NCBI GenBank assembly: GCA_001792895.1
Contig: MARA01000015.1
Span: 62,001 to 126,000 of the forward strand
Direction of reading: 5' to 3'
Source of the DNA: Lentinus brumalis
Lineage: Eukaryota > Basidiomycota > Agaricomycetes > Polyporales > Polyporaceae
DNA length: 64,000 nucleotides
In this document: piece after piece, positions 10,073 to 52,614 of the stretch
How the letters are laid out: each line of letters opens with the position of its first letter
Position numbering within the stretch: the stretch's first letter is position 1
Program-made: the position numbers and the translations under genes
Notes under the pieces: model-generated
Database searches by the model: none
Seen by the model: the letters and a program-made list of their open reading frames with translations, nothing else
Told to the model about the DNA's origin: nothing

Positions 10073-11062
10073 TCACCGGTCGGTCTGAAGCGAGACATCC
10101 AACCCGGTCCACCAAATCTCCTTCGCTGCTCTCCACACAGATACCCGCTCATCGAGACAGCCGTCGCACCAGTTGCGCTCGAGCCTCAACTCCTCAATCA
10201 AGCGGACCACGTCGTCGACCGCGGCGATGTAGTCGTCAGGATCTTCATCGAACCAGTCAGCCACATCGCGCCCCCACGCGTCCGCGGCAGAATCGTCGTG
10301 TTGGCACTTGGGGCAAAGCGGAGCCTTCCGGGGATGCGAATTGAGGAGACAGGCCCATGCTTGACCGAGCTGCAGCTGCGCATCCTGCAGACGGGTCACG
10401 TCGGCATCGGGTAGGCCAAGTGTCCCCTTGCGCGGACCATAAATTCGATCCCAGAACGACCGCGTGCAGAGGAGGTGGTAGTACGCCGCTTTAAGCACCC
10501 CCGGAATGTCGTATTGTCGGGCGAGCGTGAGTACCGTGATGCTGTCTTCGACGTGGGTTGTGGAGACATAAGTGACGAAGAGCGGGTTAGCGCAGGGATG
10601 GAGAGCGGAAGGCCATAGCATCTCGATGTACTCTACTGCAAGTTTGCGGAGCGTCGCGCATGAGAGTGCGTCCGAGGCACGAAGAAGCGCGAACGCATTG
10701 CGAGCATTCATACCACGAGCGGCTTCCCTTGAGTTGGACCGGACCATCAGCACTCAAGCAACAGACAGACGACTAAGGGGCACAGGAAGAACTCACCGTG
10801 GCATATCTAGGTGCGTGAGGAAGATATCGAAGTCGTGTGGGATGACAACGGTAAGATTGTAGACATTTAAGCCGTTGTGCGTCCTTCGCTGCTTGGAGCA
10901 CGAGTGCGGTGAGGGTCCGGATCGTGTGTTTGTGTCAGCGAACACGTCTTTGAAGTAATGGCAGAACGCGGAAAGGCGCGAACGTGACAGCTTGTAGTCG
11001 GTCAACTGAATCTGAATCACGACATCTCCATCGGGATACCAAAATTGAGGAGATCGGCCCAT
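10073..11062 (-). CDS. BTB/POZ-like protein with C-terminal Cys/Trp module (gene E)
   Basis: Exon 1 (10797-11062) begins at an ATG followed by the BTB strand pattern FWYPDGDVVIQIQLTDYKLSRSRL and ends FDIFLTHLDMP. A phase-2 GTGAGT intron (10728-10796) leads to exon 2 (10073-10727), which begins EAARGMNARNAF and continues ALLRASDALSC, an alpha-helical region with LARQYDIPGVLKAAYYHLL, and the C-terminal cysteines LCPKC and NWCDGC before W..W..LD. The spliced product is 306 residues. The frame stays open upstream of the ATG, so more 5' exons may exist. BTB proteins often recruit substrates to cullin-3 ligases. The C-terminal module is shared by all BTB genes here and is not one I can name. Confidence 0.75.
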
Positions 11063-11221
11063 GAGGGATGTTTCCGTTGCACTGTCGCTGTTCGCCTTGA
11101 TCCGTGTTGGAGGGTGGAGCGGTTCAGATTCGAATTCGGATTCGGATGCAGATAAGACTTCCGATGAAACCTGGGACGAAGCACTTGTGAGCTGTGTAGA
11201 GCCCGAATAGAGGGTTTGAAC

Positions 11222-11614
11222 TTACTCGTATACACTGAAGGAAATCATGCATAGGATAGGGGAGGTCCTTTGCTCGCAACCTGTGACGGATGATCCCAGA
11301 GGAACCTGACGCGGTAGCCGTCGGTCTTGCTGGAAGATTTTCCCTGGCGGCCTGACAGCGTACTTATATCTAGTACGCCGCTCAGCAGTGTACGAGTACG
11401 TCGCAGTTGATAAGTAGTAAGAGAGTCCGGCACTACTTACAGTGACCAGTGGAAGCCAGTCGACGTCGTTCTTGAGGAACGCAACGACCAGCCTACGCGG
11501 GTCGTCGCGCGATTGACGCGGTGTGACAAAATCACGTGTACTCCGAGTCACAGTGAATAAGTATCCGGCAGGAAGGACTTTTACGATGGTTCGAACTGTC
11601 AGTGTCTCTTCCAT
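11222..11614 (-). CDS. Hypothetical ORF or upstream exons of gene E
   Basis: A 130-residue frame from an ATG at 11614 with no recognised motif; it is basic in its middle. A TATATA stretch lies about 40 bp upstream. Donor-like GTAAGT sequences inside it (after PLVT) and at its end suggest it may hold 5' exons of gene E rather than a separate gene. Confidence 0.25.
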   Translation of the reverse strand: MEETLTVRTIVKVLPAGYLFTVTRSTRDFVTPRQSRDDPRRLVVAFLKNDVDWLPLVTVSSAGLSYYLSTATYSYTAERRTRYKYAVRPPGKIFQQDRRLPRQVPLGSSVTGCEQRTSPILCMISFSVYE

Positions 11615-11776
11615 TGCTCCAGGCCCGTAACGAACAGCTCTACGAACGGACCATATATAACACGGAGGTCAAATAGACTGTACCAGAAGTAAGTAAAACT
11701 ACGCCTAGATCGTACTTGCACTACTCCGAAGTAAGTACTAAGTATACATGATCTCTAGTCAGTCGTATATATACGA

Positions 11777-13160
11777 TCAGGACTTGTTAGGAATGAGCCA
11801 AGCATCGAGCATCCCCCACCACTCGAGTCTCTTCTCCTCCCACGCGTTCCGTCGCTCCTGCAGACAATACTGACACCAAGACTTCTCCAGCTGCCCCGCG
11901 TTCCGCCCAATCGAGTCATACCGGAACGGGTCTTCTGCGCCTTCCTTCAACTGCCCCGTCCGAATCACGAAGTGCTCCCAAGAGCTGACCCGATCCCGAG
12001 CGCGCGGGGTCTTCTGTGGGGTAGGAGTCTGAGTCGAAAATGGCGACAAGTCGCAGTCCTTCCCCGGTGCGAGATAGCAGATTGAGTGCCCGCTCTGAGG
12101 ATCCGTGCACGGAGCCACGAGCACAAAATCGCGCCAGATGTCGCCGAGAGCGGACCGGATCTGGAAGAGGAGTGTGATGTCTCTGTGATGGAGTCCCGTA
12201 GCGTAGGGGTCCTTACGAAGGGCATCGCGGAACTTCTTGTCCCCGAGAAGCTCGTACACAGCCCGTTTGAGCATCCCGGGAAGGTTGTACTGTCGAGCGA
12301 GCGCGATAGCCTTGATGGCGGCCTCGCTCTCGCCGACAGGGGAATCTGGAGGCGGGAGTTGCGAGCCGTCCCACAGCTCTCCGAGGCGTTTCTTTGCGAT
12401 GGCCAATATAGGTTCGCAGGCTAGGGCATGAGCTACCCGCAGAAGAGATACGGCAATGTCCTCCGGGAGCGTTTCAGTCATGTGGGTGCTACGGGAAGAC
12501 TCTTAGTAGAGGCGGGTGCTGCATAGGATATGAACGATACGCACAATCTCTCCAACACCGCGAGGAAGCGTTCGAAGTCCTCCGACGAGATAACGGGTAT
12601 GTCATACACCGGAGTCTTGATGAAGCTCCGTACCCATGTAGACCAGCCGCCGTCCCCAGACGGGGAGAAGAGCTCTGCGAAGCGTCCGCATAGATCCGCC
12701 AGTTTTGAGCGAGACAGGCTATAGACTGTGCGTTGCACGCGGACAAGGACGACCTGGCCGTCATAGTAGAACGCTGACGACCGGACGTCGTCTGCGCTCA
12801 TAGATGAGATTGTGATGCTGTTGCCCCACGCAGCCTGAGGAACGGACATGTGGAGGCCCGGGACGGCCCTATCCATAGCGTCAGACGACGAACGAGCGCG
12901 ATGAGTGTTGACGGAAGGGGAGGAACAGGTCGTAGTGTCGGACGAAGCAGACGAGGATGGAACCCTGAAAGTGCTACGGGCAGCCGCGCGGGCACGCTTC
13001 GGCGGCGTAGACGGCGGCTCATCAGAGGGCGCACAAGACTGAACGAGAGTGAGAGGGAGTGATGTCAGATCTTGAGTTTCTGCATAGCTCTGAATAGCAG
13101 CCTCACACTCACCCGTTTGTTGGTCTTAGACGGCTTGAGTGGCGTGTCGGGAGGAGTCAT
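11777..13160 (-). CDS. BTB/POZ-like protein with C-terminal Cys/Trp module (gene F)
   Basis: Three exons can be read: 13113-13160 (MTPPDTPLKPSKTNKR), 12545-13038 and 11777-12488, with introns 13039-13112 (GTGAGT..TTCAG) and 12489-12544 (GTGCGT..GTAG, phase 2). The spliced frame of 417 residues is open. The N-terminal 70 residues are disordered and Pro/Ser/Arg-rich. The BTB-like region has FYYDGQVVLVRVQRTVYSL, LADLCGRFAELF and CPVY-like VYDIPVISSEDFERFL. The C-terminal part has LLRVAHALAC, ALARQYNLPGMLKRAVYELL, the cysteines APCTDPQSGHSIC and SWCQYC, and the closing LEWWGMLDAWL. It is a putative cullin-3 adaptor. The intron position agrees with all BTB paralogs here. Confidence 0.8.
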
Positions 13161-13535
13161 TGAGAGTAGCTTGATTGAGCGTTCCGGAGAGACGATAGAA
13201 CAAGATTTAGCGTTGTCGTCCGTCGTAGAGGGCGGCTTATGAATGAATCGAGGAATAATGTAGCACCAAGGATGTTGTCGCGGGTGAAGGAGTCACGCTG
13301 GAAGCCTGTTTGTCGTGCAGACACGACGTCACCAGAACTTAGCTATGATCAGAGCCTGCAATCAGAGGAAATACGCCGGATGCCGCACGAAGGTGAAGGT
13401 AAGTAGAGCAACGAATAGGCATCGAGCGCTACAACAAAGGAACACTGGGAGAACAAAGGGATAAGCACACGCTGCACTGTCAAGGTACGTCAGCAGAGTG
13501 GATGGAGAAAGGGTATTCCGGGACATGTACCTGTT

Positions 13536-15582
13536 TTAGATCGCAGTGCCCAATGGCACGTTATGCGGACCCGCAATCCCGAACAAATGATCCAATTCCT
13601 TCCACCAGAGATCCCGGGCGTCCTCCATCGCACGCGCACGATCGTCAACGCAGCCCCGACACCAATTCGTGAGCTTCCTCACAGCAGTCCTGACACCTTC
13701 GATCTTGCGGAGCGGGTCGCGAACCTCGGTCGTCGCGTATTGCGCCATCTGGCCAGCCCACAACGCCGAACGCGCTCCCTCGTTGGGCAGACATTGGGTG
13801 GTATGGCACGCTTTCGGGGGAGCAAGCACATGCACCCGCCACTTCTCCTGCATGGCGGCACGGGTGCGGTACAGCATAAGAAGATCCGCGTCGGAGATGT
13901 CGACGTCAGCCCGACGCGAGGCGACGTCCGACCAAAAGTGGTCGTTCGCGAGGAGCGCGTAGAGCACTTGTTTCCGGACGAGTGGTGCCTTGAGGCCCTG
14001 CACGACGCCGAGCATCTCGATTGCTTCGCGGTACGGCCGGCCTCCTAGTCCGTCTCCTGGCATAGGAACCGACACCGACGACCACGGCCCGAGGATGCGA
14101 GCTTCGGCGAGATCGCCTATGACTTTGCACGAAAGGACGCGGGACGCACGCAGGAGCGACATAGCGGTCTCCTTCGATGCGTCTTTGATGGAGTGCTCCC
14201 TAGATGCAAGAGTTGATTTTGAGCGAAAAGGAGGAGGACTGCGGCTTACATAGGTATCTCCAGGTACTTCAAGAACGTCTCGAAGTCCTGCAGCTTGAGG
14301 TCACGCACCTCGACGACCTTCTGCCCACTGACAACCGTCCACGCCCTGTTGTTTGACACGCGCTCGAAGTACCCGCAGTGCCGTTCGAGGCGCGAGAGGA
14401 GCAGTTTGAAGTACGTCCCCTCCACGTTGACGACGATGTTGCCGTCAACATACCAGAACTCCACCGAGCGCACGTCTGGAGCAGGGAAGATTGGCTGAGC
14501 AAGAGTAGGTTTGGCGGACAGACGTTGCTCGACAGGTGCTGGGCAATCGAGCGGTACAGATTCGGTCTTGATTTCCCGGGATTCAATAGGGGCGGGTGGC
14601 ATAGGTGCAGATGCAGTACGCACTTGCTGAGAAGACGCGAGCTCGGCAGCGATCACCGGAGTTTCTTTGACCACCTCCGGTTCTATGGCGGCGGATTGAG
14701 CATGTGAGGGTCGTTTGGGCTTGGGATGAGGGACAGGTGCTGATTCCGTGGTGGGTACCGGCGGTTCAGGGTCAAGTGGCGCAGCAGCTTGAGACAAAGA
14801 AGTCGCAACTGCAGCTTGAGCACGCCGGGATATATGTTCTGCTGCTAACACTGCAGCGTTCCGACGCGGGGGACGCGAATACGACGGGACTGGACGCAAA
14901 GGCGTTGCAGTAGGATGCGAAGATGCTGCAATAGGACGCAATGAAGGTGACGCAGGAACATCCGCGAGTGGAGTGGATGCCGATGGCGAGGGAGCACCAC
15001 GTCGCGAGATTGAGCGTCCAAGACTCGCTGCACCTGCGGGAGAGCCTGACGGATGCGCTGCCCTTTGCTTGGTGCCCATCCTGTCGATGAGTTTCGTGCG
15101 CTTCGGCGCAGACTCAATCAAGTCTCCGCTAGAACCTTCGGCACGCTGTTTCAAACCTCCCCGATGAGACTCGACTGCAATAGTGACAATTAAACCATCG
15201 GCACAAACCCGTTTCTCTATTCTGTCTGCCAGCGGAGGAGCATGTGTCGTGACCACGTCCGTCTTCCTGGTTGAGCCACCGCCGAGCTTGATAATAAAGG
15301 TTCCGGGGGCGAGCGGAGACCCTCTGCCACACGAGGTAACCGTACATGTAGTCGTGTCAGGGTGATGTCCTCTCGTGGAGCCTGAAGACTTGAATGGGGT
15401 GACTCACCGGACGAGTCGTCTTTGTTTTCGAGCCCTCTCGTCTCGCGCACGCCCCGAGCCCCCTGACGGGCGGATCTGTTTGTTTTCAACTGGTCAAATT
15501 GGAGCTCCTGTCATACGTGATGGTAGATATTCACGAACCGCTGCACGCCGTCCATTCCTTCTTGTGGCTGTTGCGGAGACAT
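13536..15582 (-). CDS. BTB/POZ-like protein with long disordered N-terminus (gene G)
   Basis: The large exon from about 15256 to 14250 encodes some 270 residues rich in Pro, Ala, Ser and Arg (for example RPVPSYSRPPRRNAA), then the BTB-like VEFWYVDGNIVVNVEGTYFK and DFETFLKYLEIP. A phase-2 intron (14200-14249, GTAAGC..CTAG) joins MEHSIKDASKE and the C-terminal half (13536-14199) with LLRASRVLSCKVIG, ACHTTQC, NWCRGC and LWWKELDHLFG. The true start is probably the ATG at 15582 (MSPQQPQ), upstream of one or two short 5' exons with GTGAGT and GTTTGT donors; their exact joining is uncertain. Its closest relative is the gene at 38118-40312, which also starts MSPQ and shares the MEHS..KDA..KE junction. 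Confidence 0.75.
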
Positions 15583-15893
15583 GGCGGTCGAAGTCAAAGC
15601 CATGCGTAGATCTCATCGATCTCAAGTGTCGCAATGCACAGCCACAATGTTATGAGGCAAATAATCTATCGCCGTCAGCCTCTCAAGTATGTATGCAAAT
15701 GCACAAGCAGTTCAACATCATCATATACAGTATATACAGGCAGTCGTGACTGCATTTAATGCAGATACTTCGTCCAATCGGCGCACAGTAAGAACTGACA
15801 TCGAGCTGTCGACCAAGAGGCCCCGGATGTATGCCACGCAGATATGATACACCTATGCCACTACATCTGGGGTACGTGCACCGAGGGAATCAG

Positions 15894-16154
15894 TTACTTC
15901 GCGACCTTCGTGTCGTCCTCGCGTTTGAGCGCTGCGGGTTTGTAGAGCGACGGTGGACGCGGGAGGGCGAGGGCCGGAGCCACCTGAGCGGTCTTTCCAA
16001 TGGGTAACTGCGAGTACTGAGACTGAGATGCAGTTTGAGTAGACGTCTGCTCGACGGTCGGATCCGTCTTCGCCTTCGGTCGTGCGGTCGGCGGCGCGTT
16101 AACGGGCGGTCTCTTGGGACCGAAAGCGTCCTTGACAGTGACTGCACGGGTCAT
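15894..16154 (-). CDS. Hypothetical small basic, disordered protein
   Basis: An 86-residue frame from an ATG at 16154 begins MTRAVTVKDAFGPKRPP and ends KREDDTKVAK. It is rich in Pro, Thr, Lys and Gln with no fold evident. It might be a separate small gene or an exon. No family was recognised. Confidence 0.25.
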   Translation of the reverse strand: MTRAVTVKDAFGPKRPPVNAPPTARPKAKTDPTVEQTSTQTASQSQYSQLPIGKTAQVAPALALPRPPSLYKPAALKREDDTKVAK

Positions 16155-16631
16155 CAGCGTGAGCGCAGCAGAGGACGCAATGGAAGAAAAAGGTGCGTAC
16201 GGGGTTTGCCTGGCATGGTGGAAGAAGTTCGGGCGGAGAGAATGTTGAAGGACCAGGGAGAGGGCGAGTACGTAGACCTTTATACTTGGCTGGACGTGTT
16301 TTGCCACACAGTTGGACAGCAAAGACAAAACCACGCATTGACCTTGATGGGAACGCCACTCCCGCTGGACAAAGGACTGCAAAGCGGGCCAGGTTTCGCG
16401 TGACTGAGTAACTGTTATGCGTTGGGAGGAGACAATAGACTCATCTGGGACGCGATTAATGGTCCAGCATTAAGAGGCAGCATGAATGCGTACCATACAC
16501 AGCATCTGGCAACAAGATGCACTACCGATTCATGAAGCATATATGATCAATAATAACAATATCGACCTAGCCAGGAGTGTATCAGCGATGGAGTCGTTCG
16601 AAGCACTCGTCGTACTCACCTCCGCCCAGCC

Positions 16632-18063
16632 TCACCTATCCTCGTCGTCGCCCTTCAGCCCGAGAAGTACATCCAGCCTCTTCCACAGCTTCTCCCGCTG
16701 CTCCGTCCACGCATCGCGCCGCTCGCGCACGCACCCGACGCAGTACCCCATATCCGCCCAGTCCATCTCGACGAGGCTCTGCAGGCCGCCAATCGGGTCC
16801 CTCATCCCCCGCTCGAACACCCCGTTGTCGATCAGCCGCAGCGTCCACTCGACCTCATCACCCGCGCGCGTCTCCGCACACGTCTTCGCACTCCTCAACT
16901 TCTCCTCTCCCGCGTTCTTGTCGTTAACGAACGGGGCGAGCGGGCAGGGCACGACGGACGGCAGGGGCGCGACACACACGACGGCCATCCACTCCTTCTG
17001 GAGCGCGTCCTTGGCGCGGACGAGCCGCACGAAGTCCGATGCGGCGAGGCGCGGCGGGGGCGAGTTCTTCTCGTCGTCCTCAGTCGCAATGTTCAATGGG
17101 TGCGGGTCGCCGGCGGACTCGGCGTGCAGGTACACGGCGAGTTCTTGCCCGAAGTTGCGCGTGCGCAGAAGCTCGTAGTAGGCGTTCTTGAGCACCTCGG
17201 GGACTTCGCACTGCTGGGCGAGATGGATCGTCTCGACTGCCGGGGCGCGCGGCTCGGAAGCCAACCGGGAGAGGTCCTGCGGCCACTGCTCGCGTAGGAG
17301 GTGGGTGGCGAAACCGAGGATGGTCTTGAACTTGAGCGTGTGCGCTGCACGCAGGAGTGATGCGAGCACGGGGAAGGGCGGCGGGTTGATCGCATACGCG
17401 CTAGCAATCCGTGTTACTCATCGAATACACATGATGCGATGAAGGTGGGACGTACATTCCGGCATCGAGGGCGGTCAGTAGTCGCTCGAAGTCCAGCACG
17501 CTCACACCTCGTGCTACATAGACCGGGCAACTGTCCACAACGTCGGGCTCCTCGCCACCAATGCTGTCCCTGCGATGTTCACCTACGAGGCTCGCGCGGC
17601 CATAGACACGGACACGTACCGTCCTTCACCGCTGAATAGCGCCGAGAAGTAGTCCGACTGTTGCATGAGTCGCGACCGGTGCAACCGGGAGAGAGTGTTC
17701 TGGACCTGCACGACGACCGACCCATCGAGATGCCAGAATTTTGCGCTTCGCTTGCGCGCGACCATCCTCTGCTTTCCTTTGTCTTTTGCCTTGCCGTTGA
17801 TCTTGGTGGTCGAAGGAGGCGGCATAGATGCCGTCGAGGCCGACGCTTTTTGAGGGGTGGCTACAGGACGCGGGAGCGGCTGCGAGGCCGGAGGAGGTCG
17901 TACATCGTTCCGACGAGGACGTTTTGAGGGCCTGTATACAAGTGCGTGAGCTGAAGATCGACGTTCCGTTCAAAGCGACTTGGAAGACGAGGGTGCATCC
18001 GAGACAGGACTCGTGGCCTTCTCACGGGGAGGTGGGACGACCTCTCCGTGACGGAGACAACAT
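16632..18063 (-). CDS. BTB/POZ-like protein with C-terminal Cys/Trp module (gene J1)
   Basis: Inferred exons are 18026-18063 (MLSPSRRGRPTSP), 17620-17931, 17456-17569 and 16632-17400. The introns of 94, 50 and 55 nt have GT-AG ends; the last is in phase 2 at the BTB/C-terminal border. The spliced frame of 410 residues is open. The BTB region has KFWHLDGSVVVQVQNTL, QQSDYFSALF, SCPVYVARGVSVLDFERLL. The C-terminal half has LASLLRAAHTLKFKTI, QCEVPEVLKNAYYELL, APLPSVVPC, GYCVGC and KLWKRLDVLLG. A 4-base length difference from its copy J2, followed by TAG, falls inside the 50 nt intron and does not break the gene. The upstream disordered ORF at 18592-19149 is phase-compatible with the exon starting at 17931, so it may be an alternative 5' exon. 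Confidence 0.75.
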
Positions 18064-18591
18064 GCTGTCATGCTGTCTTGAACGGACTATGCACCCGACC
18101 CTCATGAACGCGTCCATGACATGCCGATTAACCGGTATATTCATCGGGTGTGGACAGTCTGTGGCGTGTGCACCTCGGGTCGACCACCCAGGTTGTCTCT
18201 GAAGTCACGGCCACTGCGTGAGCGCAGCCAAGGAGAGTTTCTCCCGCTTGCCGCGGCAAATACGTACGACGGTGCCTTGTTCAGGAATCCCGCATGGAGT
18301 CCCGCAGCGAGCGTCGCAGCGATAGCGTTACAGACCCGGCCTGCTGCGAAGGCTAAACATCTGTCCCGCGCGGCATTCAAGGAGCAGACTCCTGAGCATG
18401 CAGAGTGTCGTATCCGCGGCGGCAGGCGGGAGCGGGAACACGCCAGCCATCCGTCACAGTAAGTCGTGTATGACTTTTGCGCAGGGCTCGATGTCTTTGA
18501 CAAAGTCTCCGGTCACTCGGACACTGTCCCACCGCACAGAGATGACGGAAAGAACAGGACCTCCAGGATAATAACACTTCAAGAGGAATAC

Positions 18592-19149
18592 TCACTGGGC
18601 GGATGCCGGCTGCGTCGCAGGTACCTGTGGCAGCTCCGAAGACCCTTCACCATCCTCCAACACCCTCTTTTTCTTCGACGCCGCGGTGCGCGACGGCTTC
18701 GCGGATTTTGGCGCTGCAACTGGAGCAGAAACAGCCATATCGCCGCTGTTCACCGATGCAGATGACTCTGCAGGCGACCCGTTCTCTTTGAGCTTCAAGT
18801 TTCGCGTCGACCTGCGCGGCTTGGGAGCCGGTGTCCGTGGCAGTGGCTGGTCCGCGTACTTGAGCTTGGGCGAGGGGTTTCTAGCAGGCGACGCGGCCGT
18901 CTGAGCTGCTTGCAGGAGCACGGCCGGCGGGTGAGACGCGATTGTGTTCTCTGAGCTCCTCGAGGCCGAGGATGTGCGCACCGACTGTCTGGTGTGCGCG
19001 AGAAGCTCCGAGACTTCAGGCAAGCTAGAGCCGCCGCTGGTGTCGCTTGCAAAGCCGTCGTCGCTGGCGATATTGGCGTCATCGTCAGGCTGAGGAAGTA
19101 CAGCGATCGAGACCTGGCTGAGGGCATTGTCAGCGTTGTCCTCGGTCAT
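18592..19149 (-). CDS. Disordered Ser/Pro/Lys-rich protein or 5' exon of J1
   Basis: From the ATG at 19149 the frame encodes about 185 residues: an acidic beginning (PQPDDDANIASDDGFAS), a Ser-rich middle, SPKLKYADQPLPRTPAPKPR, and a basic end (ASKKKRVLEDGEG). There is no folded domain. The stop overlaps a strong donor (CCCA|GTGAGT, phase 2) which could splice to the phase-2 exon of J1 at 17931 across about 665 nt, making a BTB protein with a long disordered N-terminus like gene G. A close copy lies at 27409-27966. Confidence 0.6.
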   Translation of the reverse strand: MTEDNADNALSQVSIAVLPQPDDDANIASDDGFASDTSGGSSLPEVSELLAHTRQSVRTSSASRSSENTIASHPPAVLLQAAQTAASPARNPSPKLKYADQPLPRTPAPKPRRSTRNLKLKENGSPAESSASVNSGDMAVSAPVAAPKSAKPSRTAASKKKRVLEDGEGSSELPQVPATQPASAQ

Positions 19150-19188
19150 GTTCACATGGAGCAGCGCGACACGCGTCCTCGTACGCCG

Positions 19189-19230: not shown

Positions 19231-19239
19231 CATTGTCCG

Positions 19240-25080: not shown

Positions 25081-25099
25081 TGCTACGTACGCGCCCAGC

Positions 25100-26411
25100 T
25101 CACATCTCCTCGTCCTCGCCCTTCAGCCCAAGCAGCACGTCCAGCCTCTTCCACTGCTTCTCCCGCTGCTCCGTCCACGCATCGCGCCGCTCACGCACGC
25201 ACCCGACGCAGTACCCCATATCCGCCCAGTCCATCTCGACGAGGCTCTGCAGGCCGCCAATCGGGTCTGCCATCCCCCGCTCGAACACCCCGTTGTCGAT
25301 CAGCCGCAGCGTCCACTCGACCTCGTCGCCCGCGCGCGTCTCCGCACACGTCTTCGCACTCTTCAGCTTCTCCTCTCCCGCGTTCTTGTCGTTCACGAAC
25401 GGCGCGAGCGGGCAGGGCACGACGGACGGCAGGGGCGCGACGCACACGACGGCCATCCACTCCTTCTGGAGCGCGTCCTTGGCGCGGACGAGCCGCACGA
25501 AGTCCGATGCGTCGAGGCGCGGCGGGGGCGCGTTCTTCTCGTCGTCCTCGCTCGCGATGTTCAGGGGGTGCGGGTCGCCGGCAGACTCCGCGTGCAGGTA
25601 CACGGCGAGGTCTTGCCCGAAGGAGGGCGTCCGCAGAAGCTCGTAGTAGGCATTCTTGAGCACCTCGGGGACTTCGCACTGCTGGGCGAGATGGATCGTC
25701 TCGACTGCGTGGTCGCGCGGCTCAGATGAGAGCCGGGAAAGGTCCTGCGGCCACTGTTCGCGCAGGAGATGGGTGGCGAAACCAAGGATGGTCTTGAACT
25801 TGAGCGTATGCGCTGCACGCAGGAGTGATGCGAGCACGGGGAAGGGCGGCGGGTTGATCGCATACGCGCTAGCAATCCGTGTTACTCATCGAATACACAT
25901 GATGCGATGAAGGTGGGACGTACATTCCGGCATCGAGGGCGGTCAGTAGTCGCTCGAAGTCCAACACACTCACACCCCGTGCTACATAGACCGGGCAACT
26001 GTCCACAACGTCGGGCTCCTCGCCACCAATGCTGTCCCTGCGATGTTCAGCCACGAGGCTCGCGTGGCCACAGACACGGACAGACACGCACCGTCCATCA
26101 CCGCTGAACAGCGCAGAGAAGTAGTCCGATTGCTGCATGAGCCGCGAACGATGCAACCGGAAGAGTGTGTTATGAACCTGCACGACGACCGACCCATCGA
26201 GATGCCAGAAGTTTGTGCTTCGCTTGCGCGCGACCATCCTCTGCTTTCCCTTGTCTTTCGCCTTGCCATTGATCTTCGTAGTCGAAGGAGGGGCCATAGA
26301 CGCCGTGGAAGCCGACGCTTTTTGGGGAGTGGCTACGGGACGCGGGAGCGGCTGCGAGGCAGGAGGAGGTCGTACATCGCCCCGACGAGGACGTTTTGAG
26401 GGCCTGTACAT
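25100..26411 (-). CDS. BTB/POZ-like protein with C-terminal Cys/Trp module (gene J2)
   Basis: Copy of J1. Exons are 26092-26411, 25924-26037 and 25100-25868, with introns of 54 nt (GTGCGT..GCAG) and 55 nt (GTACGT..CTAG, phase 2). The spliced frame is open and codes for 400 residues from the ATG at 26411 (MYRPSKRPRRGDV). In J1 this ATG is GTA, and the aligned site is a splice acceptor (TACAG|G). Conversely, the J1 first-exon donor GTGAGA is GCGGAG here, so the two copies seem to differ in how they start. Motifs are as in J1: FWHLDGSVVVQVHNTL, SCPVYVARGVSVLDFERLL, APLPSVVPC and GYCVGC. Confidence 0.8.
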
Positions 26412-27408
26412 GAGAGCGTGAGCCGCGAAAGATTATTGAAGTTCCGTTCAGAATACGAGGGTACATCTAAGACATGACTCTCGCCTGCCATAGAGCACAA
26501 CCGTGGCCTTCTCCGCGAGTTGACACAACCCACGTGTCATGGCTACAACCTCCTGTTTGAAGCGGTCTTGTGTTCGCTCGTCATGAAGACGTCGGCGATG
26601 CACGAAACGAAAAGGCGGGCACTGGCAGTCCTTCATGCGTGAGGCTAGTCTCGCCAGACAGACACGATTCTGCGTCGTCCCAACAGCCGGGACCAAACAG
26701 AGGACGAGACAAAAGCATGCCGTTAGCGTCTGCAGGGTGAGTTTGGTACAGGTGGGAGTGAGATTCCGTCAGGTTCAGCGTCGTGGAACCCACTCACGCC
26801 CCTTGACAGCGTGATCTACCCAGAGTGGATATGGAAGTGCTCGCTCTCGCCGCCGCTGCTGCCAATGTCCAACGCGATGTCCGCTCTGTCTCCTCATAGA
26901 CGATTCGAGTATGGTTCAATGGGTGCATGTATGCACTACTGCGATCCAAGAACCCGCGAAACGCATCGCATCCCCGCGGCTCGAACTAGAGGACGTGGCA
27001 GAGTCGGGTTGCGCAGTGACCTTACAGGCCGAAAGTCGCTACTCACACCCATCTTTTACAGTCTCACCAGACGGTCAGAAACGGGATCTTTGATGTACTG
27101 ACAATGAGACTACAGATATCGGACGCCTACACGCGCATGGAGCAAGACCGCGGCCTTCTCATGGCAAGTTAAACGACGTCTCTGGCATGACAACATCGTC
27201 ATCTCTCGAACCGGACCTGCATGCGCCCGTCATGACCGTCCGAGTCTCTGATCATCGTTATAGATACCCGCCACCAGTCCTGATGATGCACGAAAAGAGA
27301 CGGCGGGCACCGCCAGAGGAACCGCGCGGCCTTGATGGGAAAGGTCTTTTGCAACGCCACACAGAGAGTAGGAGCGGAAGAGGAACTCCAACATTGGGGA
27401 AGGAACAC

Positions 27409-27966
27409 TCACTGAGCGGAGGCCGGCTGCGTTGCGGGCAGCTGTGGCAGCTCCAAAGAACCTTCGCCATTATCCAACACCCTCTTCTTCTTCGACGCCG
27501 CCGTGCGCGACGACCCCGCAGATTTCTCCGTCGCGACTGGAGCAGAAACAGTCATCTTCCCACTGTCCACCGACGCAGATAACTCCGCAGGCGACCCGTT
27601 TTCCTTGAGCTTCAAGTTTCGCGTCGACCTGCGCGGCTTGGGAGCGGGAGTCTGCGGCAGTGGCTGGTCTGCGTACTCGAGTTTGGGCGAAGGACTTCTC
27701 GCTGGCGACGCCTCGGCCTGCGCTTCTTCTACCGCGGCCGCAGGAGGTTGTTGTTGGGCCTCCGAGTTCGTCGTGGCCGAAGATGTGCGCATCGACTGGC
27801 TAGTGCGCGCAAGAAGCTCCGAGACTTCGGGCAAGCTAGAGCCGCCGCTGGTGTCGCTTGCAAAGCCGTCGTCGCTCGCGATGTCGGCGTCGTCGTCGTC
27901 GTCGGGCTGAGGAAGTACAGCAATAGAGACCTGGCTGAGGGCGTTGTCGACGTCGTCCTCAAACAT
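27409..27966 (-). CDS. Disordered Ser/Pro/Lys-rich protein or 5' exon of J2
   Basis: Copy of the ORF at 18592-19149, from the ATG at 27966 (MFEDDVDNALSQVSIAVL). It keeps the acidic start, the PKPRRSTRNLKLKENGSP block and the end SKKKRVLDNGEG. As in copy 1 the stop overlaps a GTGAGT donor in phase 2, compatible with the acceptor at 26404 (about 1 kb away). It is arranged head-to-head with gene H; the ATGs are about 195 bp apart. Confidence 0.6.
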   Translation of the reverse strand: MFEDDVDNALSQVSIAVLPQPDDDDDADIASDDGFASDTSGGSSLPEVSELLARTSQSMRTSSATTNSEAQQQPPAAAVEEAQAEASPARSPSPKLEYADQPLPQTPAPKPRRSTRNLKLKENGSPAELSASVDSGKMTVSAPVATEKSAGSSRTAASKKKRVLDNGEGSLELPQLPATQPASAQ

Positions 27967-28025
27967 CTTCACGCCGAGCAGCGCGACACGCGTCCTCGTA
28001 CGCGAAAGTTTGGGAGCGCCCGCCC

Positions 28026-28161: not shown

Positions 28162-29437
28162 ATGGCTATCAAAGACGAGCCCTCCTTCTCTGGTAAGCTA
28201 ACGAGCTACTCCAAGATGCACTCTGCCGACTCGCATGGCGACACGCTATGCCAGACTCGGAGGCAGACATCAAGCCTCAGAATCGGGCGCAAACGGCGGA
28301 CGCTGATGGCAACAAACGGGTGAGTCTCTCGTGCCTCACGCAGACGCAGGGGCTATCGCCTGAATTTCTGCAGAAACCGGATGAGGCGGGTAGACCTCAC
28401 GCGGCCGACACGAAGCGGATAAAGACAGGCGGACCCGCAGGGTCGAAGGATACACGACAAGAGTCCGACCCACCAAGGTCCAAGTGCGATGCCTTCTGGT
28501 ACAAGGATGGGAACGTCGTCGTCGTCGTCGGAAATACCGCCTTCAAGCTATACAAAGCCCGTCTCTCCAGATACTCCATAGTCCTCGCAGGCCAGTTCGC
28601 GGACGAAGGCGCAGGTCGTCCGACCATGGAGGGCTGTCCCGTCTACGAGCTGACGGGGCTGAAAGTCGAGGACTTCAAGCAGTTTCTCGAAGCACTGGAA
28701 ACCCCGATGTACGTCTCTCCGCTCATGTCCGAGTCCGCATCATGATCACGCCCGAAACGCCTTCCCGATTCCCCAGCGTGTTCGCCTCGAGATCCCCGTC
28801 GCAACCGACATTGATATCCATCCTCCGCGCATCTCAAGCGCTCGACTGCTCTACGACCCGTGCATTCGCACTCGAGAAGCTCCGCTCCATCTGGCCGCAC
28901 GACGATCCAACACTCCCGGGCGGGAAGCTGGGCGGTCCCCTCGCCGTCCGTATCATCCAAGTCTCGCGAGAATGTGCGGTGCCCGAGCTGCGCAAGCGGG
29001 CCTTCTACGAGCTCATCCGGAGCTCCAGCTTCTGGGAGCGAATTGCGACAAACCGGTCGTCAATCCACCTCCCCGACGCGGACATCATCGCGCTCTTGCT
29101 GGCGCGGCAGGAGCTGCAGCGGCTGTGGTCCGCGCTGGTGTTCGAGCCGCCTTTCGGGAAGGACACGGGGTGCCCGACAAAGACGTGTGCGCCGAACATC
29201 TTCAAAGGCGGACCGGCCGGTCGGACAGGACTCTGGCGGGCCCAGATGATTGAGGACGGAGACTTTGATGCGGGGAGTGCAGATCCGATAGGGCATCTGG
29301 AGATGCTGCTGACGAAGAGGGCGGGAGACTTGGCCGCTCAGGGATGGTGTGAGGGCTGTATTGTGAACCGTCAGAAGGCATGGACGGACGCACAAGTGAA
29401 CTGGTGGGGTGTGCTTGATCAGTGGTGTAAGTCGTAG
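28162..29437 (+). CDS. BTB/POZ-like protein with C-terminal Cys/Trp module (gene H)
   Basis: Four exons: 28162-28192, 28255-28319, 28374-28708 and 28777-29437; introns of 62, 54 and 68 nt all have GT-AG ends. The spliced frame of 363 residues is open. It starts MAIKDEPSFSDSEADI, has a basic disordered linker, then the BTB-like FWYKDGNVVVVVGNTAFKLY, GCPVYELTGLKVEDFKQFL. The phase-2 intron at the domain border is followed by ISILRASQALDC, ALEKLRSIWP, ECAVPELRKRAFYELI, GCPTKTC, GWCEGC and NWWGVLDQWC. Its neighbour, gene I, is a tandem paralog with the same four-exon layout. It is a putative cullin-3 substrate adaptor of unknown target. Confidence 0.85.
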
Positions 29438-29467
29438 CTGCTACTCTCCGTGTACTTCGACCCGAAT

Positions 29468-29654: not shown

Positions 29655-31000
29655 ATGTCTACCATCAAAGCCGAGCCTAAATTCGACCCATCCCTCTTCG
29701 GTAAGCTACCAGCCGTCAGACCGAGCTGCACATCGTGATTCATCCGACCCCCATGGCGTATCGTCCAGACATGGAAGCTGATGTCAAGCAGCAAGACGGC
29801 GCAGGTAGCGTGGCAGCGGCCGACGGGCGCAAACGAGTGAGTCTTGCTTCCACGCAATGTGCTCGGGACTGACTGACTGAGTGGACTCGCACTCGTGTAG
29901 AAGGGCGATGCGAGCGCAGGAGGGGCCGCCGAGGTCGATACAAAGCGGACCAAGACAGAGAAGACCGCAGGGCCGAGCACTCCACGACAAGACTCGCAGA
30001 AACCCAGGTCAAAGTGCGTCGCCTTCTGGTACGAGGATGGCAACGTCGTCATCGTCGTTGAAGAGACCGCGTTCAAGCTCTACAAGGCTCGCCTCTCCAA
30101 GTTCTCCACCTACTTCGAAGCGATATTCGCGAACGACACCGAGAAGAACCGGTCCACGATGGAAGGCTGTCCTGTGTATCGTGCGGAGGGCGTAGCCGTG
30201 AATGACTTCAAGCAGTTCCTGGAGGCGTTGGAGACCCCCTTGTACGTCGGTCCTCCGTTCTTCGCCACTCGCCGTCCCTGTCATCCTCACCTCCCGCGAC
30301 ACCTAGCGTCTTCGTCTCCAAGCCACCCTCCCAGGACACGGCCATCGCCATCCTGCGCGCCTCGCAGCAGCTGGGCTGCCAGACGACCCGTTCTTTCGCA
30401 GTGGAGAGACTGCGCGCGATCTGGCCCAACGACAAGCCGCGGCTTCCCGGGGGCAGCCGTGCCTTCGAGGACGCGATCAAGATCATGCAGGTCTCGCGCG
30501 ACTGCCAGGTCCCCCAGCTGCGCAAGCGGGCGTTCTACGAGCTCGTCCGCAGCGCCGCGTTCTGGACGACGCTGCGCGAGAACCGGCAGGCCGTGGGGCT
30601 CCCGGACTCGGACATCGTCGCGCTCCTGTCTGCGCGCGTAGAACTGCAGAACCTCTTCATGGTTCGGATCCTGGAGCCACCGCAGGGGAGAGAGGCGGAG
30701 TGCCCGGGGCTGCAGGCGGCGAAGCAGGGCGGCGATCCGAAGACGGCGAAGCTGTGTGCGCCGAGGATCCAGAAGGGGTGGGGGCGGAAGGCGAACTGGG
30801 TGATGAACATGTATGAGAACGGGGACCTGATGGTCGGGAAGGCGGATCCGCTCGGACACCTTCAAAACCTCCTTACCGAGAGGCTGAAGGTCGTTGCAAA
30901 CGCGGGGTGGTGCTCGAGCTGTTTGCAGGAGCGGGTCAAGGCGTGGCAGGATGCTCAGGTAAAGTGGTGGGGCATGCTTGACGATTGGCTCAAGACTTAG
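29655..31000 (+). CDS. BTB/POZ-like protein with C-terminal Cys/Trp module (gene I)
   Basis: Four exons: 29655-29700, 29769-29836, 29901-30241 and 30307-31000; introns of 68, 64 and 65 nt. The spliced frame of 382 residues is open. It starts MSTIKAEPKFDPSLFDMEAD, then a Lys/Ala-rich linker (VDTKRTKTEKTAG). The BTB-like part has FWYEDGNVVIVVEETAFKLY, FSTYFEAIF, GCPVYRAEGVAVNDFKQFL. After the phase-2 intron come AIAILRASQQLGC, ERLRAIWPNDKP, DCQVPQLRKRAFYELV, ECPGLQ..LCAP, GWCSSC and KWWGMLDDWLK. It arose by tandem duplication with gene H, as shown by identical exon phases and linker style. Confidence 0.85.
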
Positions 31001-31009
31001 TTGCGGCTG

Positions 31010-32245: not shown

Positions 32246-32247
32246 GT

Positions 32248-33685: not shown

Positions 33686-33960
33686 CACGACGGGCAATCG
33701 CCCGTACCACCCCCCAGAACAGGCCCGGAATATCGCCCGAATTGGTCTCCTGTTCTGGTCCAGAACAGCTTTGGAAATCGGACCGGAACCTTTGTAAGCC
33801 GTATAAGTAGCCGGTACTGATGAGTACTTTCGGAGCTACAACTTGTTGTATCCGGCGCTCCGGTCCTGTCACCAAACTATTCTGGACCGGAACCAGGAAT
33901 ACATACTTACGTATATTCCGGGCCTGTTCTGGGGGGTGGTACGGGCCAATGCCCGTCGTG
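33686..33960. mobile_element. CACTA-like non-autonomous element, 275 bp
   Basis: The ends are inverted repeats of about 47 bp: the left starts CACGACGGGCAATCGCCCGT and the right, read in reverse, CACGACGGGCATTGGCCCGT. Both continue ACCACCCCCCAGAACAGGCC. The trinucleotide AAC lies directly outside both ends (33683-33685 and 33961-33963). A 3 bp target duplication and a terminal CAC fit the CACTA/EnSpm superfamily, although the fourth and fifth bases are GA, not TA. It has no coding capacity. Confidence 0.65.
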
Positions 33961-34382: not shown

Positions 34383-36327
34383 ATGCGGCACTGCAGCATC
34401 GAAGACGTGAGGCCAGGTGAGCGTGGTAGTGGTAGTGATTCACATCCGGGACAGTGGTTCATGCTAACCGTCCGACAGACCTGCGTCGCGAACTCGAACA
34501 CCTCCACACCTTCTCCCAGGAGCGTGGCATCGCTGTCGCGGTGGAGATCGAGGAGCTCTGCCTGCTGAACGTACCTCAAGCCGCTGCGGGCCTTGAGTGG
34601 CTCTACGACGTCCCTGAGGGACAGAAGCACCGGATCGTCCCCTCGCCAACCGGCACATCGCAGCACTACCAGTGGTTATGCTTCTCCACGCCCTCTGTGG
34701 CCCCGCCTCCTGCAGAAATCGGCCTCCCTGGCGACGTCTGGGTCATCACCAGTTCGAAAGCGCAGAAGATTTACCACCGTGTCGACCGGCTCGGATGGAA
34801 GCTGGTACCCCCCAGAGTATGGATCCCGCACCCGTTTGCACCAGAGTTACATCTCGCTTTCGGCATTTCCAAGCTCGGATGGTTCCCCATGGAACTTATG
34901 ACGGACGTCTTCCCGGCTGTGTGGAAGTATCAAGGGGCGCCGAACGAGTATGCACGCGTGCCGCCGTCGGCGGCGGTCAAGGCGTTGTACGAAACCACCG
35001 GACGGCCCATCGACCACGGAGACCTTGCGTCGCTCGCGGCCGTGTCGCACAGCTGCGGGGACTCGCGTGCGTCGAAGCAGTGGGATGCTGACCGTGTTAG
35101 GTTCTACATCAACTTCAGAGACCGCCCCGTCGATAACCGTGCGTTGCAGCCTCATACTGGCTCGCTTCCGCTGGCTGCCGGAGGACACCCGTCGACGACG
35201 CTCGTCCCTCGCGCGTCTGGCCACGACTACCTCAAGGACGCGCCTCCCGAGTGCCTGCCCGTCGCTCAAGGGATTAGCATCCTGCGCATCAACGGCGTGT
35301 TTCGCAAAGTCAACCTTCAGCGCATCCGGACGTATGCGAAGAACTTCGAGTCCGCCCTTACGGCACCAAAGGTCTTAGCTGGACCGACCGGTCCTATGCT
35401 CTTGTGTGACACTGACACTGACCGCGACCTGCGCCCCGCCACCTTGCACTGTTTCATCAGTCTAGTCGAGAATGATATGTGAGTTGTCTTGTTTGCTTCC
35501 AGTGAAGTGCGATACTTACCGCCGCGTTAACCAGCGAGTGCAAGAAGTACGACTACAGCACATCGGACCTTGTGAGCGTGCTCCGTATCTGTGCGAGCGA
35601 CAAGCTCGGTGCTCCACTGGTGAAGAAGTCCATCAAGCGTCGCCTCCGCAGGATGTGGGTCTTCTCCTTCGAGCGCGTATCCCGAGGCAGGCTCGCCGAT
35701 GCCCCGGACGCTCTCGTGGCCGCCCGCTGGTACGGTCTCACCAAGATCAAGAAACGCGCACTCTTCGAGTTCATGCGCAGCCCGGACGCGCTCTGCGACA
35801 TCCTGAAGAGCGACTATCCGCAAGAGTGGTACCTTGGTAACAGCGGGGTCCCGCGGCTCTGGGAGGTGCGCGAAGTGCTGGAGGCGACGTGGAGCGCATT
35901 CATCATGGATCCTCCGCAAGCCCTGTGCCGTCCCTGCCCTACGTACGGCGGACAGAGCCCGTGCAGCGCTGCACGTCGTCAGCTTGTGGACGAGTGGGCA
36001 GACACCGTCGGGCAGCCGATGGTGGAGGGTGAGTACCAGTTCGACCCGATCGGGGGCATGCAGGAGTTGGCCCGCATGGACTGGCGGTCGTACGGGATGT
36101 GCATTGGGTGCGTGCGAGCGATGCTGCAGCTGTGTGAGGGGAAGAAGGTGGAGTGGTACGGGCGGTTCGACGCGTGGATTCAACCTGAGTTGTGGGGTGT
36201 GGATGAGGGCGAGGTCGGGCCTGACGATTATGACAACATGCCGTATGTCGACTCGGATGACGAAGGGGAAGGCAGTGAAGACGACGGTGATGATGACGAT
36301 GATGAGATGGACGCAACTGAGTTCTGA
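34383..36327 (+). CDS. Large divergent BTB-like protein with acidic tail (gene L)
   Basis: Exons 34383-34416 (MRHCSIEDVRP), 34479-35478 and 35535-36327, with introns of 62 and 56 nt, give an open frame of 608 residues. The region before the phase-2 intron (GISILRINGVFRKVNLQRI..LHCFISLVEND) takes the place of the BTB domain in the paralogs. The part after it is clearly homologous: VSVLRICASDKLGAP, YGLTKIKKRALFEFM, LCRPC..SPC, GMCIGC, VEWYGRFDAWI. Unlike the others it has about 270 extra N-terminal residues (LPGDVWVITSSKAQKIY, LGWFPMELMTDVFPAVW), perhaps a second degenerate BTB-like unit, and a C-terminal run of Asp/Glu (GEGSEDDGDDDDDE). Function unknown; a role as ligase adaptor is inferred only from the family. 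Confidence 0.75.
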
Positions 36328-36433
36328 GTTCAAACCACCCTATCCTTCGACTTATTCTCAATGTACGATCGTGGTAGTGTACGCAATCCATCAAGTACAC
36401 CGAGTTCGGAGTCCTGGTTCGCCTTTCGCGCTG

Positions 36434-36475
36434 CAGCCACAAACGCAACAAAGGCAAATAACGCGCTTGTGGCTG
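36434..36475 (+). promoter_or_regulatory. Shared F-box upstream element, copy 4, palindromic form
   Basis: The left arm CAGCCACAAACGC and the right arm GCGCTTGTGGCTG form an inverted repeat with one mismatch, spaced by AACAAAGGCAAATAAC. The right arm with the spacer matches the elements before genes A, B and D in the same orientation relative to the gene. It lies about 65 bp upstream of the ATG at 36540. Confidence 0.65.
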
Positions 36476-36539
36476 AGCGCGTTCGAATGTCCTCTCCGTC
36501 ACGGCTCACCCACTCTTGACTCTCAAGTCTTCCGCCATC

Positions 36540-37848
36540 ATGCCCCCACCGTGCAAGCGACGCAACATCCAGGAGTCCGAGCCAAAGGCAGTCGAGAGCA
36601 CAGACTCCCACTTGCACCGGTCGCCACACGCGTCGAATGTTTTCATACCACTCGACATCCTCTTGCTGATCTTAGATGCTGTCGAAGAAGGGTGGTCCCC
36701 GCATATATATGCTTCGTGCGCTCGGACCTGCAGAGCTATGCTGAGGCCTTCACAAGTGCGCATGTACCGCAACGTACTCATCAACCAGCCGCACCACTTC
36801 GCATCGTTCTCAAGAACAATGCTCGGCAACATGGACCTCGCTCTGCTGGTGAAGAAGCTCATCGCTGATGTAGATACGGGGTGGCCCGCCGTTCAAGACC
36901 TTCCAGCTGACCAACTGCTCTTGTCGTCTCATGCGATAAGTCGTCTGCAGAATCTCCAAGAGCTTACCGTGATTGGCTTGTGCCCCAACATATTCCACCC
37001 AAAACAGGCGATGTCGTCTCCGGTTATTGAACGGTTCCTGGGAGCATTTGCGGCTTCTTGTTCAAAGCTCAGGTGCTTGCGCTTGAAACAGCTGGAGCTC
37101 CAGGAGTACGCAGGCCTTGTCCGACACATCGTTTCGTTCTCCGAGATGGAGACCTTGGAGCTCGACTGGGTGACTTGGACTCGGCATGGGAGGCTCCGAT
37201 CCCCGGAGAGGTATATCCGTGACGGCGCGTGCACAAATCTGCACACTCTGAAGGTGAGTGCCGTGCACTTGTCGTTGGCCGCTGCTGATGGTGGCGCGTA
37301 TCCGGCAGATATCATTCTGCGGCACACACCGTCGCAAAGCCTGGAACTTCATAACATTTTCAGGTTGGGGCACCTCGATACAACAGCTCGTCATACGCGT
37401 CCCCCACACGAAGCTCCTCAAACGCGAGTTGAAAGGTCAGCATCCGTCCCCGGCGTCGGCGCACATCTTGCAGCTAATACTGACCGCGTATACAGGCCTG
37501 TCGGCATTCTCGCGCCTGTGCTCCTTCGAGTTGCACCTCTCAGACGAAGACATCCGTGGCGCCACCGTTGCTCTGCACCATATCACTTCTGCTGCCATCA
37601 GGACCGTCCGCGTCGTCCACCACTGCCAGATGCAGGGCGATGTGCTCGCGCTGTACACAGGACTCGGTCTCGACGACGTCCTCGCCGGACCGCAGTATAC
37701 GTCCCTCGAGTCAGCGGCCTGGTGCTTGGTGAGCGACCTGTCCGACGCAGACGATTGGTTTCAGGGTATACCTAGGTGCTTCCCGGGTTTAGCGAAGCGG
37801 GGCATACTGGTTTCAGAGCGGCGGAGACTTCCCGGTATGTGCTACTAG
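36540..37848 (+). CDS. F-box/LRR-like protein
   Basis: Same architecture as gene D on the opposite strand. Exons are 36540-37253, 37309-37435 and from 37496, with introns 37254-37308 (GTGAGT..GCAG) and 37436-37495 (GTCAGC..ACAG, phase 1). The frame may stop at 37848. It may instead use a GTATGT donor at 37835 to reach a 14 nt exon ending at 37908; either way the product is 397 residues. The F-box is IPLDILLLILDAV, SCARTCRAMLRPSQVRMYR, VLINQPHHFASFSRTM. LRR-like segments are LQELTVIGL, LRCLRLKQLEL, METLELDWV, LCSFELHLSDEDI. It follows gene L closely. It is likely an SCF substrate adaptor. Confidence 0.85.
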
Positions 37849-38117
37849 GCGTTGAATCATGCGCGGAACGGTACACTGAATCTATTTGCGATAGAGCGAC
37901 TTCCATAGACTCAGAGTCTCCGTATCCTTACGCCTTGATTTTTGTACCAGCGGCCTAGAATATGCACATCACTTGCTCACGCTCGGAAGTCTCAGCCTCG
38001 AGGCAGAGTGTAGAGACTCCGGTTATAGCCCAAGGTTCGAGCTTATGTAACGGCGAACACTGATATCGATTGCTCACCGTGGCGAGAGCGTTTCCCGCAC
38101 TTCATACTCGCACCGTC

Positions 38118-40312
38118 ATGTCCCCGCAACACCAGCTAGGCGAAACAACAGAGGGCACGACAACGCAGTGAGTTGTCTCGGAATTCTGTTGCGTGTTGAC
38201 TGACCAGGGAACAGGAACATATCTGCGCGTCTGAGACCTCGTGTCCACCCAGTCCCGGCGGTCCCACAGTAAACCCTCCCTCCCTTCGTGTGCTACGGGC
38301 AACGCTGACAAGTAGCAGATACAAGTCCGCTCGACTGAGGGCTCGGGCACAGCCTCTTGTGGGCCAGACGAGGCATCATTCGTGCGATGACGGGACTGAC
38401 TCCGGTGAGTATCCAGTGACTCGTCAACGCTTGAGAGTAGCGACTGACGTACGAATCGATAGACCACGAGCGGCCTTCGGACTTGCACGACGTGGAAGCT
38501 GTGGGGGCACCGCAACTTGACCAGCGCATGGCTTCGACGAGCAGTCGTGCAGGTCTTTCCGCGGTCAGTACCAGTATTCTCAAGCAAACAGATGCGGCCT
38601 CCGGGACAGATGGTCGGCGTTCCGGTGAGGCGGCTATCCCTGCCAAGCGGGTAGGTGCCCACTGTATGACATTCTGGGTTTATACTTATGGTGCACATCA
38701 GACAGCAGATAACGAGTTTACAGTGTACAGAGAGCCTCTCCTGATGACGGATACAGCCATCGAGCGTGCGCACAAGAAGCGGAAGGGCGTTGATTGGTCT
38801 GGCGTGAAGAAACTAGGAGACGGGACCTCGACGACAGGTCCCCACGCTATGCGGCCTCCCTCACGACCTGGACATGCCCTGCAAGATCGTCCAGAGGAAG
38901 TGGTTCAGTCTGAGGGCCGGCACAGAGCAACGGGCAACTCGTGCTCGTCATCATCCGCACTCCCTCGTGGCCTTGTATCCGTCCCGGCCGAATCGTCGCA
39001 TCGCCGTGACGTCCCCGGCTCTTCAATGCCCATAGCAGGACCGAGTCCAACGATACGCTGCGAAACCCAATTGGAACCTCACGCATCCGTAGATTCTGGT
39101 CCTGCGGCATGGACACGGCCGGAAGCTATACCGATCCCTGTGCCACTTCGTACCATGTCCATGTCTGCGAAGTCGACTGCCTCCGCAAGACCCGTGTCCT
39201 CGAACAAGCCGCAATCCCGCATTGCACTTTCCCAGATCGTGCGCGCTGGGGGTGCGGATGTGCGTTCCCGGGGCGTGCAGACGGAAGCGGAGGCACATCC
39301 GCCACCTGTTCTACCAGAGAAGATTCCGCCGCTGTCGCCTGCTCGAGGGGATCCTGCACCACCCGCGGCCTATCCGGAATTCCCCCCTCGCACAAACGAT
39401 CTGTAGAGTTTTGGTATCGCGACGGAAACATCATCGTCAATGCGGAGGGGACGTACTTCCAACTGTTTCTTTCGCGCCTCGAGCGGCACTGCGGATACTT
39501 CGAGCACGCTTCGATCGACCGGGCGCGGACGGTTGTCAATGGGCAGAAGGTCGTCGAGGTGCATGACCTCAAGGTGCGAGACTTCGAGACGTTCTTGAAG
39601 TATCTTGAGGTACCCATGTAAGCTGTAGCACTCCTCCTGCTTCTCTCAGAACTCACCCGGTGCATCCAGGGAGCACTCCGTCAAGGACGCACCGAAGGAG
39701 ATGGCTATGTCGCTGGTGCGCGCATCCCGCGTCCTTTCGTGCAAAGTCATAGGTGATCTTGCCGAGGCGCGAGTCTTCGGGCCGTGGTTGTCGGCGTCGC
39801 TTCCTACTCCAGGAGACGGACTAGCTGGCCGGCCTTACCGCGAGGCTATCGAGATGCTCGTTATTGCGCAGGGCCTTAACGTACCGCTCGTTCGGAAGCA
39901 GACCCTCTACGCGCTCCTCGCGGACGACCACTTCTGGTCCGACGTCGCGTCACGCCGGGCTGGCGTCGACATCTCCGACGCGGACCTCCTCATACTATAC
40001 CGCACCCGTGCGGTTATGCAGGAGAAGTGGCGGGTCCACATACTGATGCCGCCGAACGCGTGTCTGGACAGTGGATGTCTCCCGGACCCTGGAAGTCGGG
40101 TTGCTCTGTGGTCCGGCCAGATGGCGCATTTCACGACCACCGAGGTTCGCGACCCGTTGCGGAGCATTGAAGACGTCAGGACGGCTGTTGGGAAGCTGGC
40201 TAACTGGTGCAGGGTGTGTGTTGATGAGCGTATGCGCGCCTTGGAGGATGCCGGGGAACTCTGGTGGAAGGAGTTGGATCCCTTGCTTGGAATCGTGGCG
40301 CCCGTTGCATAA
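38118..40312 (+). CDS. BTB/POZ-like protein with long disordered N-terminus (gene K), frame break
   Basis: Inverted paralog of gene G. The likely start is the ATG at 38118 (MSPQHQLGE), followed by short exons with GTGAGT/GTAGGT donors. A long disordered Pro/Ser-rich exon runs from about 38731 to 39400 (SARPVSSNKPQSRIAL, PPVLPEKIPPLSP). The BTB-like part VEFWYRDGNIIVNAEGTYFQ ... DFETFLKYLEVP lies in another frame; the shift occurs at a run of six C near 39385, so a one-base deletion or an unrecognised intron is needed to join them. A phase-2 intron at 39618-39669 leads to MEHSVKDAPKE, LVRASRVLSCKVIG, ACLDSGC, NWCRVC and LWWKELDPLLG (39670-40312). Confidence 0.65.
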
Positions 40313-46868: not shown

Positions 46869-46901
46869 GTACCCCCCTCCCAAGGGTCGTGTCCGCACGA
46901 C

Positions 46902-52609: not shown

Positions 52610-52614
52610 ATACC

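Follow-up and report, generated by a model that had tools for sequence, protein, structure and literature searches.

A conserved, uncatalogued four-cysteine domain behind the BTB domain in a tandem gene cluster of Lentinus brumalis and in other mushroom-forming fungi

The 64,000-nucleotide stretch of the Lentinus brumalis genome analyzed here (the window; C44:62001-126000 of a 53.4 Mb assembly) contains nine neighboring genes (E, F, G, J1, J2, H, I, L, and K) encoding proteins in which a BTB-like region is followed by helices and a C-terminal module with two cysteine pairs (the Cys4 module). The Cys4 module is real and conserved, is uncatalogued in the libraries searched, and belongs to an already known kind of protein. 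Within a large BTB family of agaricomycetes, the nine genes form a tandem, diverging group, and the module also follows the BTB domain in many further proteins from mushroom-forming fungi.

Conservation of the Cys4 module

An initial annotation of the window had described nine genes with a BTB-like region, helices, a C-terminus with two cysteine pairs, and a closing WxxL, and this layout was confirmed, at the annotated positions, by spliced gene models and alignment. The spliced cores (286-336 amino acids) were open in all nine genes, and the splice junctions of H and I matched those of the annotated L. brumalis proteins P0002 (H) and P0001 (I). Earlier exons encoded most of the BTB domain, while the last exon encoded the final BTB helices, a VPxLRKxAxYELL-like helical region, and the Cys4 module. 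The VPxLRKxAxYELL-like motif was recognizable in all nine genes, although it was degenerate in G, L, and E and sits in the BTB/BACK-like region, outside of the module.

The last exons shared 12 invariant columns, which included the first cysteine, both cysteines of a CxxC, two tryptophans, two aspartates, and one proline. All nine genes carried the closing pattern CxxC-x(12-18)-[WYFS]xx[LIVMFQ]. Among 74 sequences (the nine gene models and 65 database proteins) the pattern occurred in 63, as compared with 287 of 7400 sequences made by shuffling the last 120 residues. Nine of the 11 sequences missing the pattern were short proteins (162-307 amino acids); the others were P0032 (335 amino acids) and P0046 (339 amino acids).

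In a 52-row alignment, the eight best-kept columns were the CxxC pair (52/52), the first cysteine (50/52), the second cysteine (44/52), an aspartate, a tryptophan, and two leucines. Eight rows lacked the second cysteine in its column, but seven of them carried at least two cysteines in the first-pair segment, as did 50 of the 52 rows altogether (exceptions: P0034 and P0042). By a crude count over 51 rows, the cysteines of the first pair were separated by a median of 5 residues (range 1 to 45). In F, I, J1, and J2 the pair was loosely spaced, with 7, 17, 21, and 21 residues, respectively, between the cysteines. For gene L, the annotation had rated the module as more conserved than the BTB part. 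Exon 2 of L was more conserved than the BTB exon in six of eight comparisons, but over all 36 pairs of the nine genes mean identity was slightly higher for the BTB exons (33%) than for the last exon (31%).

The genes are coding and under constraint: the ratio of nonsynonymous (dN) to synonymous (dS) divergence was low in J1/J2 (~0.16; dN 0.031, dS 0.193), G/K (~0.20; dN 0.139, dS 0.679), and H/I (~0.29; dN 0.362, dS 1.239), indicating purifying selection. Since the cysteines are paired, the module probably binds zinc.

Known-family searches and predicted structures

The annotation had recognized no named domain in the module, and none was found: in Pfam and NCBIfam searches with the nine last exons nothing scored over the cut-off and no weak match was common to the genes. 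The Pfam BTB model (PF00651) scored over its cut-off in two of the nine spliced cores (I and J2) and weakly, below the cut-off, in four (E, G, H, and J1), with no match in F, K, and L. It was over the cut-off in three of nine database relatives and matched 29 of 31 wider-family proteins at E<=0.1, which had no further Pfam domain in common. The Pfam BACK profile matched none of the nine last exons at E<=10, none of the nine cores at E<=1, and none of the 31 relatives at E<=0.1. No C2H2 finger model of Pfam matched the nine last exons at E<=10, and no Kelch model matched the nine cores.

The 134-residue module of gene I (30596..30997 of the window, + strand), folded alone, was predicted to be an all-helical domain with a predicted local distance difference test (pLDDT) score of 93.4. 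The four strongly kept cysteines lay just before or at helix starts of this compact predicted fold, in agreement with the small fold that had been suggested. Searches of PDB and BFVD with the module model found no significant structural match. Within the full-length model the module was predicted confidently together with the rest of the protein (most blocks over 90; predicted template modeling score 0.77).

Distribution beyond the nine genes

The module is not confined to the nine genes: paralogs, a wider-family search, and profile-profile comparison show it to be the C-terminal portion of a large BTB family in agaricomycetes. When the last exon of I or of F was searched against the L. brumalis genome, with only the best candidates scored, both queries recovered an identical set of 11 genes on contig C44 (26.8 to 102 kb), made up of the nine and two extra module copies upstream of them. 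The J1 last exon added one short match on C75. A profile of the nine last exons was run on open frames from 20 fetched loci, 18 of them chosen for a BTB match; 14 further BTB regions lay outside of this sample. Along with the two upstream genes, the profile found on C48 a BTB paralog (E 4.6e-9) that ends in CxxC ... WxxLP, and the remaining loci scored weakly (3.6e-5 and worse). The pattern CxxC-x(10-18)-WxxL, with L, I, V, M, or F as its final residue, occurred in open frames 100 amino acids or longer at 14 of the 20 loci, nearly always at the expected place as judged by eye.

A search with the paralog L051 returned 51 proteins, mostly named BTB domain-containing or hypothetical and mostly from Polyporales. 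These included proteins of Roridomyces, Coprinopsis, and Mycena, all genera of Agaricales. A member from Asterophora parasitica (Agaricales) was found with the window profile (E 3.1e-31). In hhalign, the last-exon profile aligned with a 31-row BTB profile of the wider family (Polyporales and Agaricales) over 206 columns (97.6%, E 3.4e-12), with the second cysteine and the CxxC in register and the first cysteine offset.

Gene models and cluster evolution

Exons were placed by splice models, and last exons also by alignment. Five genes lie on the minus strand. Gene E has a BTB exon (core part, 10797..11053) and a last exon (10073..10727) encoding the BTB end, BACK-like helices, and the Cys4 module (LCPKC ... 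NWCDGC ... WWTGLD). The corresponding exons are 12545..12780 (core part) and 11777..12488 in gene F (C-x7-C ... SWCQYC ... WWGMLD), and 14250..14467 (core part) and 13536..14199 in gene G (ACHTTQC ... NWCRGC ... WWKELD). Two BTB exons were modeled in J1 (17456..17747; 17620-17747 and 17456-17569) and in J2 (25924..26219; 26092-26219 and 25924-26037). The last exon of J1 is 16632..17400 (VPC ... KTC ... GYCVGC ... LWKRLD) and that of J2 is 25100..25868, with 94% identity to J1 by pairwise comparison.

The other four genes lie on the plus strand. Gene H, a relative of P0002, has a BTB exon (core part, 28485..28708) and a last exon (28777..29437; GCPTKTC ... GWCEGC ... WWGVLD). In gene I, the BTB exon (core part, 30015..30241), where PF00651 matches, is followed by a last exon (30307..31000) encoding the BTB end, BACK-like helices, and the Cys4 module. 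Gene L, a relative of P0010, has a divergent BTB-like exon (core part, 35270..35478) and a last exon (35535..36327) encoding the module and an acidic C-terminal tail. The long N-terminal part of gene L (34439-35479, +) is common to the ~600-amino-acid proteins P0010-P0012 of other polypores and had no Pfam match. Gene K has a BTB exon (core part, 39400..39617) and a last exon (39670..40312; ACLDSGC ... NWCRVC ... WWKELD).

Three pairs were found among these genes: J1/J2, a recent repeat (16623-17951 and 25092-26423, 92.9% identity); G/K, an inverted pair (80.6%); and H/I, a tandem pair (70.7%). Gene I was 96% identical to P0001 of L. brumalis. In a 23-row tree I and H grouped with L. brumalis, H adjoining P0002 on a very short branch. 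Gene L grouped with Polyporus arcularius (P0010, very short branch), Cerioporus squamosus, and L. tigrinus. These affinities of I, H, and L mark the host as a polypore of the Lentinus/Polyporus type (Polyporales). J grouped with P0013, a protein from Agaricales (96/89). Long branches made the placement of E, F, and P0013 unsure.

The J1/J2 repeat formed part of a repeated two-gene block with an upstream uncharacterized gene (18584-19186 and 27401-28003, 82.6%), which had no Pfam match at E<=0.1. Another BTB cluster (G000:C35:158-252 kb) contained several open frames of ~500-690 amino acids, some with two BTB matches each (tandem-BTB type). Beside the cluster in the window was an F-box-like gene (8637-9524, -; PF12937 E 0.0041, under the cut-off), and a frame at 36477-37775 (+) had a PLDIxLLILDAV stretch resembling that of this gene but matched no Pfam family. 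Other repeats in the window included an imperfect inverted repeat (33686-33960; 275 bp, 74% identity to its own reverse complement), a direct repeat (46502-46874 and 52242-52615; 374 bp, 99.2%) that is possibly a recent mobile element, and more repeated stretches at 43-46 kb, 54-57 kb, and 62-64 kb.

Possible function of the proteins

Our favored but tentative reading is that the proteins are CUL3-adaptor-like and carry an uncatalogued, probably zinc-bound Cys4 domain, with zinc, CUL3 binding, and substrate recognition as predicted properties. Each protein would have three parts: a BTB domain at the N-terminus, then a short helical region that is BACK/3-box-like, and finally the C-terminal all-helical Cys4 domain (C-x(n)-C ... 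CxxC). Its most likely role would be that of a substrate adaptor for a CUL3 ubiquitin ligase: the BTB domain and following helices would dimerize and dock on CUL3, and the Cys4 domain, probably built around one zinc ion, would either contact the protein to be tagged or cap the adaptor. In the former role the Cys4 domain may help to choose which proteins go for destruction.

The region before the module had a BTB fold resembling the BTB domain and first BACK-like helices of CUL3 adaptors in Foldseek and VIA-align. Chains of SPOP ranked first in Foldseek. Alignments of the P0001 model to KBTBD2 and SPOP passed the BTB domain and reached model residues 266-272, with the post-BTB helices superposing on the 3-box/BACK region. 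The same genome encodes CUL3 (C1:1209108-1211416, where one open frame best matched Cullin-3, E 4.9e-19) and at least one CUL1-like cullin, which fit the three cullin types that PMC2785787 describes in fungi. According to PMC1257465, Schizosaccharomyces pombe Btb1-3 interact with Pcu3, a Cul3 homolog; this interaction and the presence of CUL3 in the genome make a CUL3-adaptor role probable. Cullin matches at three places on G000:C55:279-305 kb, one of them this CUL1-like cullin, and at two on C60:1712-1744 kb suggest cullin copies.

Some results weighed against a CUL3-adaptor role: BCL6 BTB chains tied with the CUL3 adaptors in VIA-align, SKP1 matches also tied, and seven of the nine window cores lay under the Pfam BTB cut-off. 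The BCL6 tie would also suit another reading, in which the proteins serve in the nucleus as BTB scaffolds or co-repressors without binding CUL3, and the Cys4 domain makes protein or DNA contacts within a transcription complex. In a PDB sequence-profile search, which returned BTB-containing chains exclusively (35 at E<=1), zinc-finger transcription factors likewise came first through their BTB domains (ZBTB7A at E 1.3e-4, followed by BCL6 and others). Of 52 usable N-termini, 30 had a basic [KR][KR]x[KR] motif before the BTB domain, against a mean of 4.6 and a maximum of 12 in shuffles. This count is over related rather than independent sequences and was drawn from 66 entries, 14 of which had no usable segment, one of them being the window piece itself. 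The motif suggests the nucleus as a location for many family members, and under the CUL3-adaptor reading members carrying it might work there. The scaffold explanation is nevertheless unlikely: SPOP ranked first in Foldseek, the longer matches past the BTB domain were to KBTBD2 and SPOP, and no C2H2 finger or other DNA-binding Pfam family was over the cut-off.

Less likely again, the module could be a structural cap that stabilizes or oligomerizes the protein while substrate choice lies elsewhere. Its confident prediction together with the rest of the protein would fit such a cap, and no finding points to a ligand, but BTB was the sole Pfam domain common to the scanned proteins, which leaves little else to choose a target. 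Redox-sensing thiols in place of a metal site, as in KEAP1, a BTB-BACK CUL3 adaptor regulated through cysteines and with BTB entries among the fold matches, are very improbable, as the invariant CxxC and the nearly invariant first cysteine, at or beside helix starts of a confident compact fold, look structural.

Significance and comparison with known systems

BTB/POZ proteins are listed in PMC8893723 among the ubiquitination genes in orthogroups particular to complex multicellular mushroom development. Despite this link, the post-BTB part of the family has no name in the libraries searched. The compact, confidently predicted Cys4 domain, common to Polyporales and Agaricales, is a defining feature of the family and allows members to be recognized where the Pfam BTB model falls below its cut-off. 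At 134 residues, it is also a small piece suited to structure and binding tests.

SPOP, a MATH-BTB-3-box/BACK CUL3 adaptor with an N-terminal MATH domain (also named in the entry titles), likewise has a BTB fold and then helices and was the best Foldseek match, aligned up to model residues 269-272; its alignments reported no counterpart of the Cys4 module. KBTBD2, KLHL11, and gigaxonin are BTB-BACK-Kelch CUL3 adaptors, whereas the window proteins have a short Cys4 helical domain in the place of Kelch. The BTB-zinc-finger proteins (ZBTB7A, BCL6, and PLZF) resemble the window proteins in the BTB domain, as judged by sequence profile, and in having paired cysteines in the C-terminal part. The window proteins had no C2H2 match, and their single set of four cysteines lies in a domain predicted to be all-helical. 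The agaricomycete 'BTB domain-containing protein' family (for example, P0015, P0017, P0060, and P0061) has the same order of parts and cysteine layout (C-x~5-C ... CxxC ... WxxLP) and is homologous over the last exon. The window subfamily differs in ending with W(W)xxLD or a variant instead of WxxLP and, in some members, in a longer first-pair loop. A broader proposal, which we consider rather doubtful as a whole, is that the Cys4 helical domain is an uncatalogued zinc-binding target-recognition part of expanded, partly nuclear CUL3 adaptors of mushroom-forming fungi, and the cluster a site of its ongoing diversification; such an expanded class would be akin to lineage-specific MATH-BTB or F-box expansions elsewhere.
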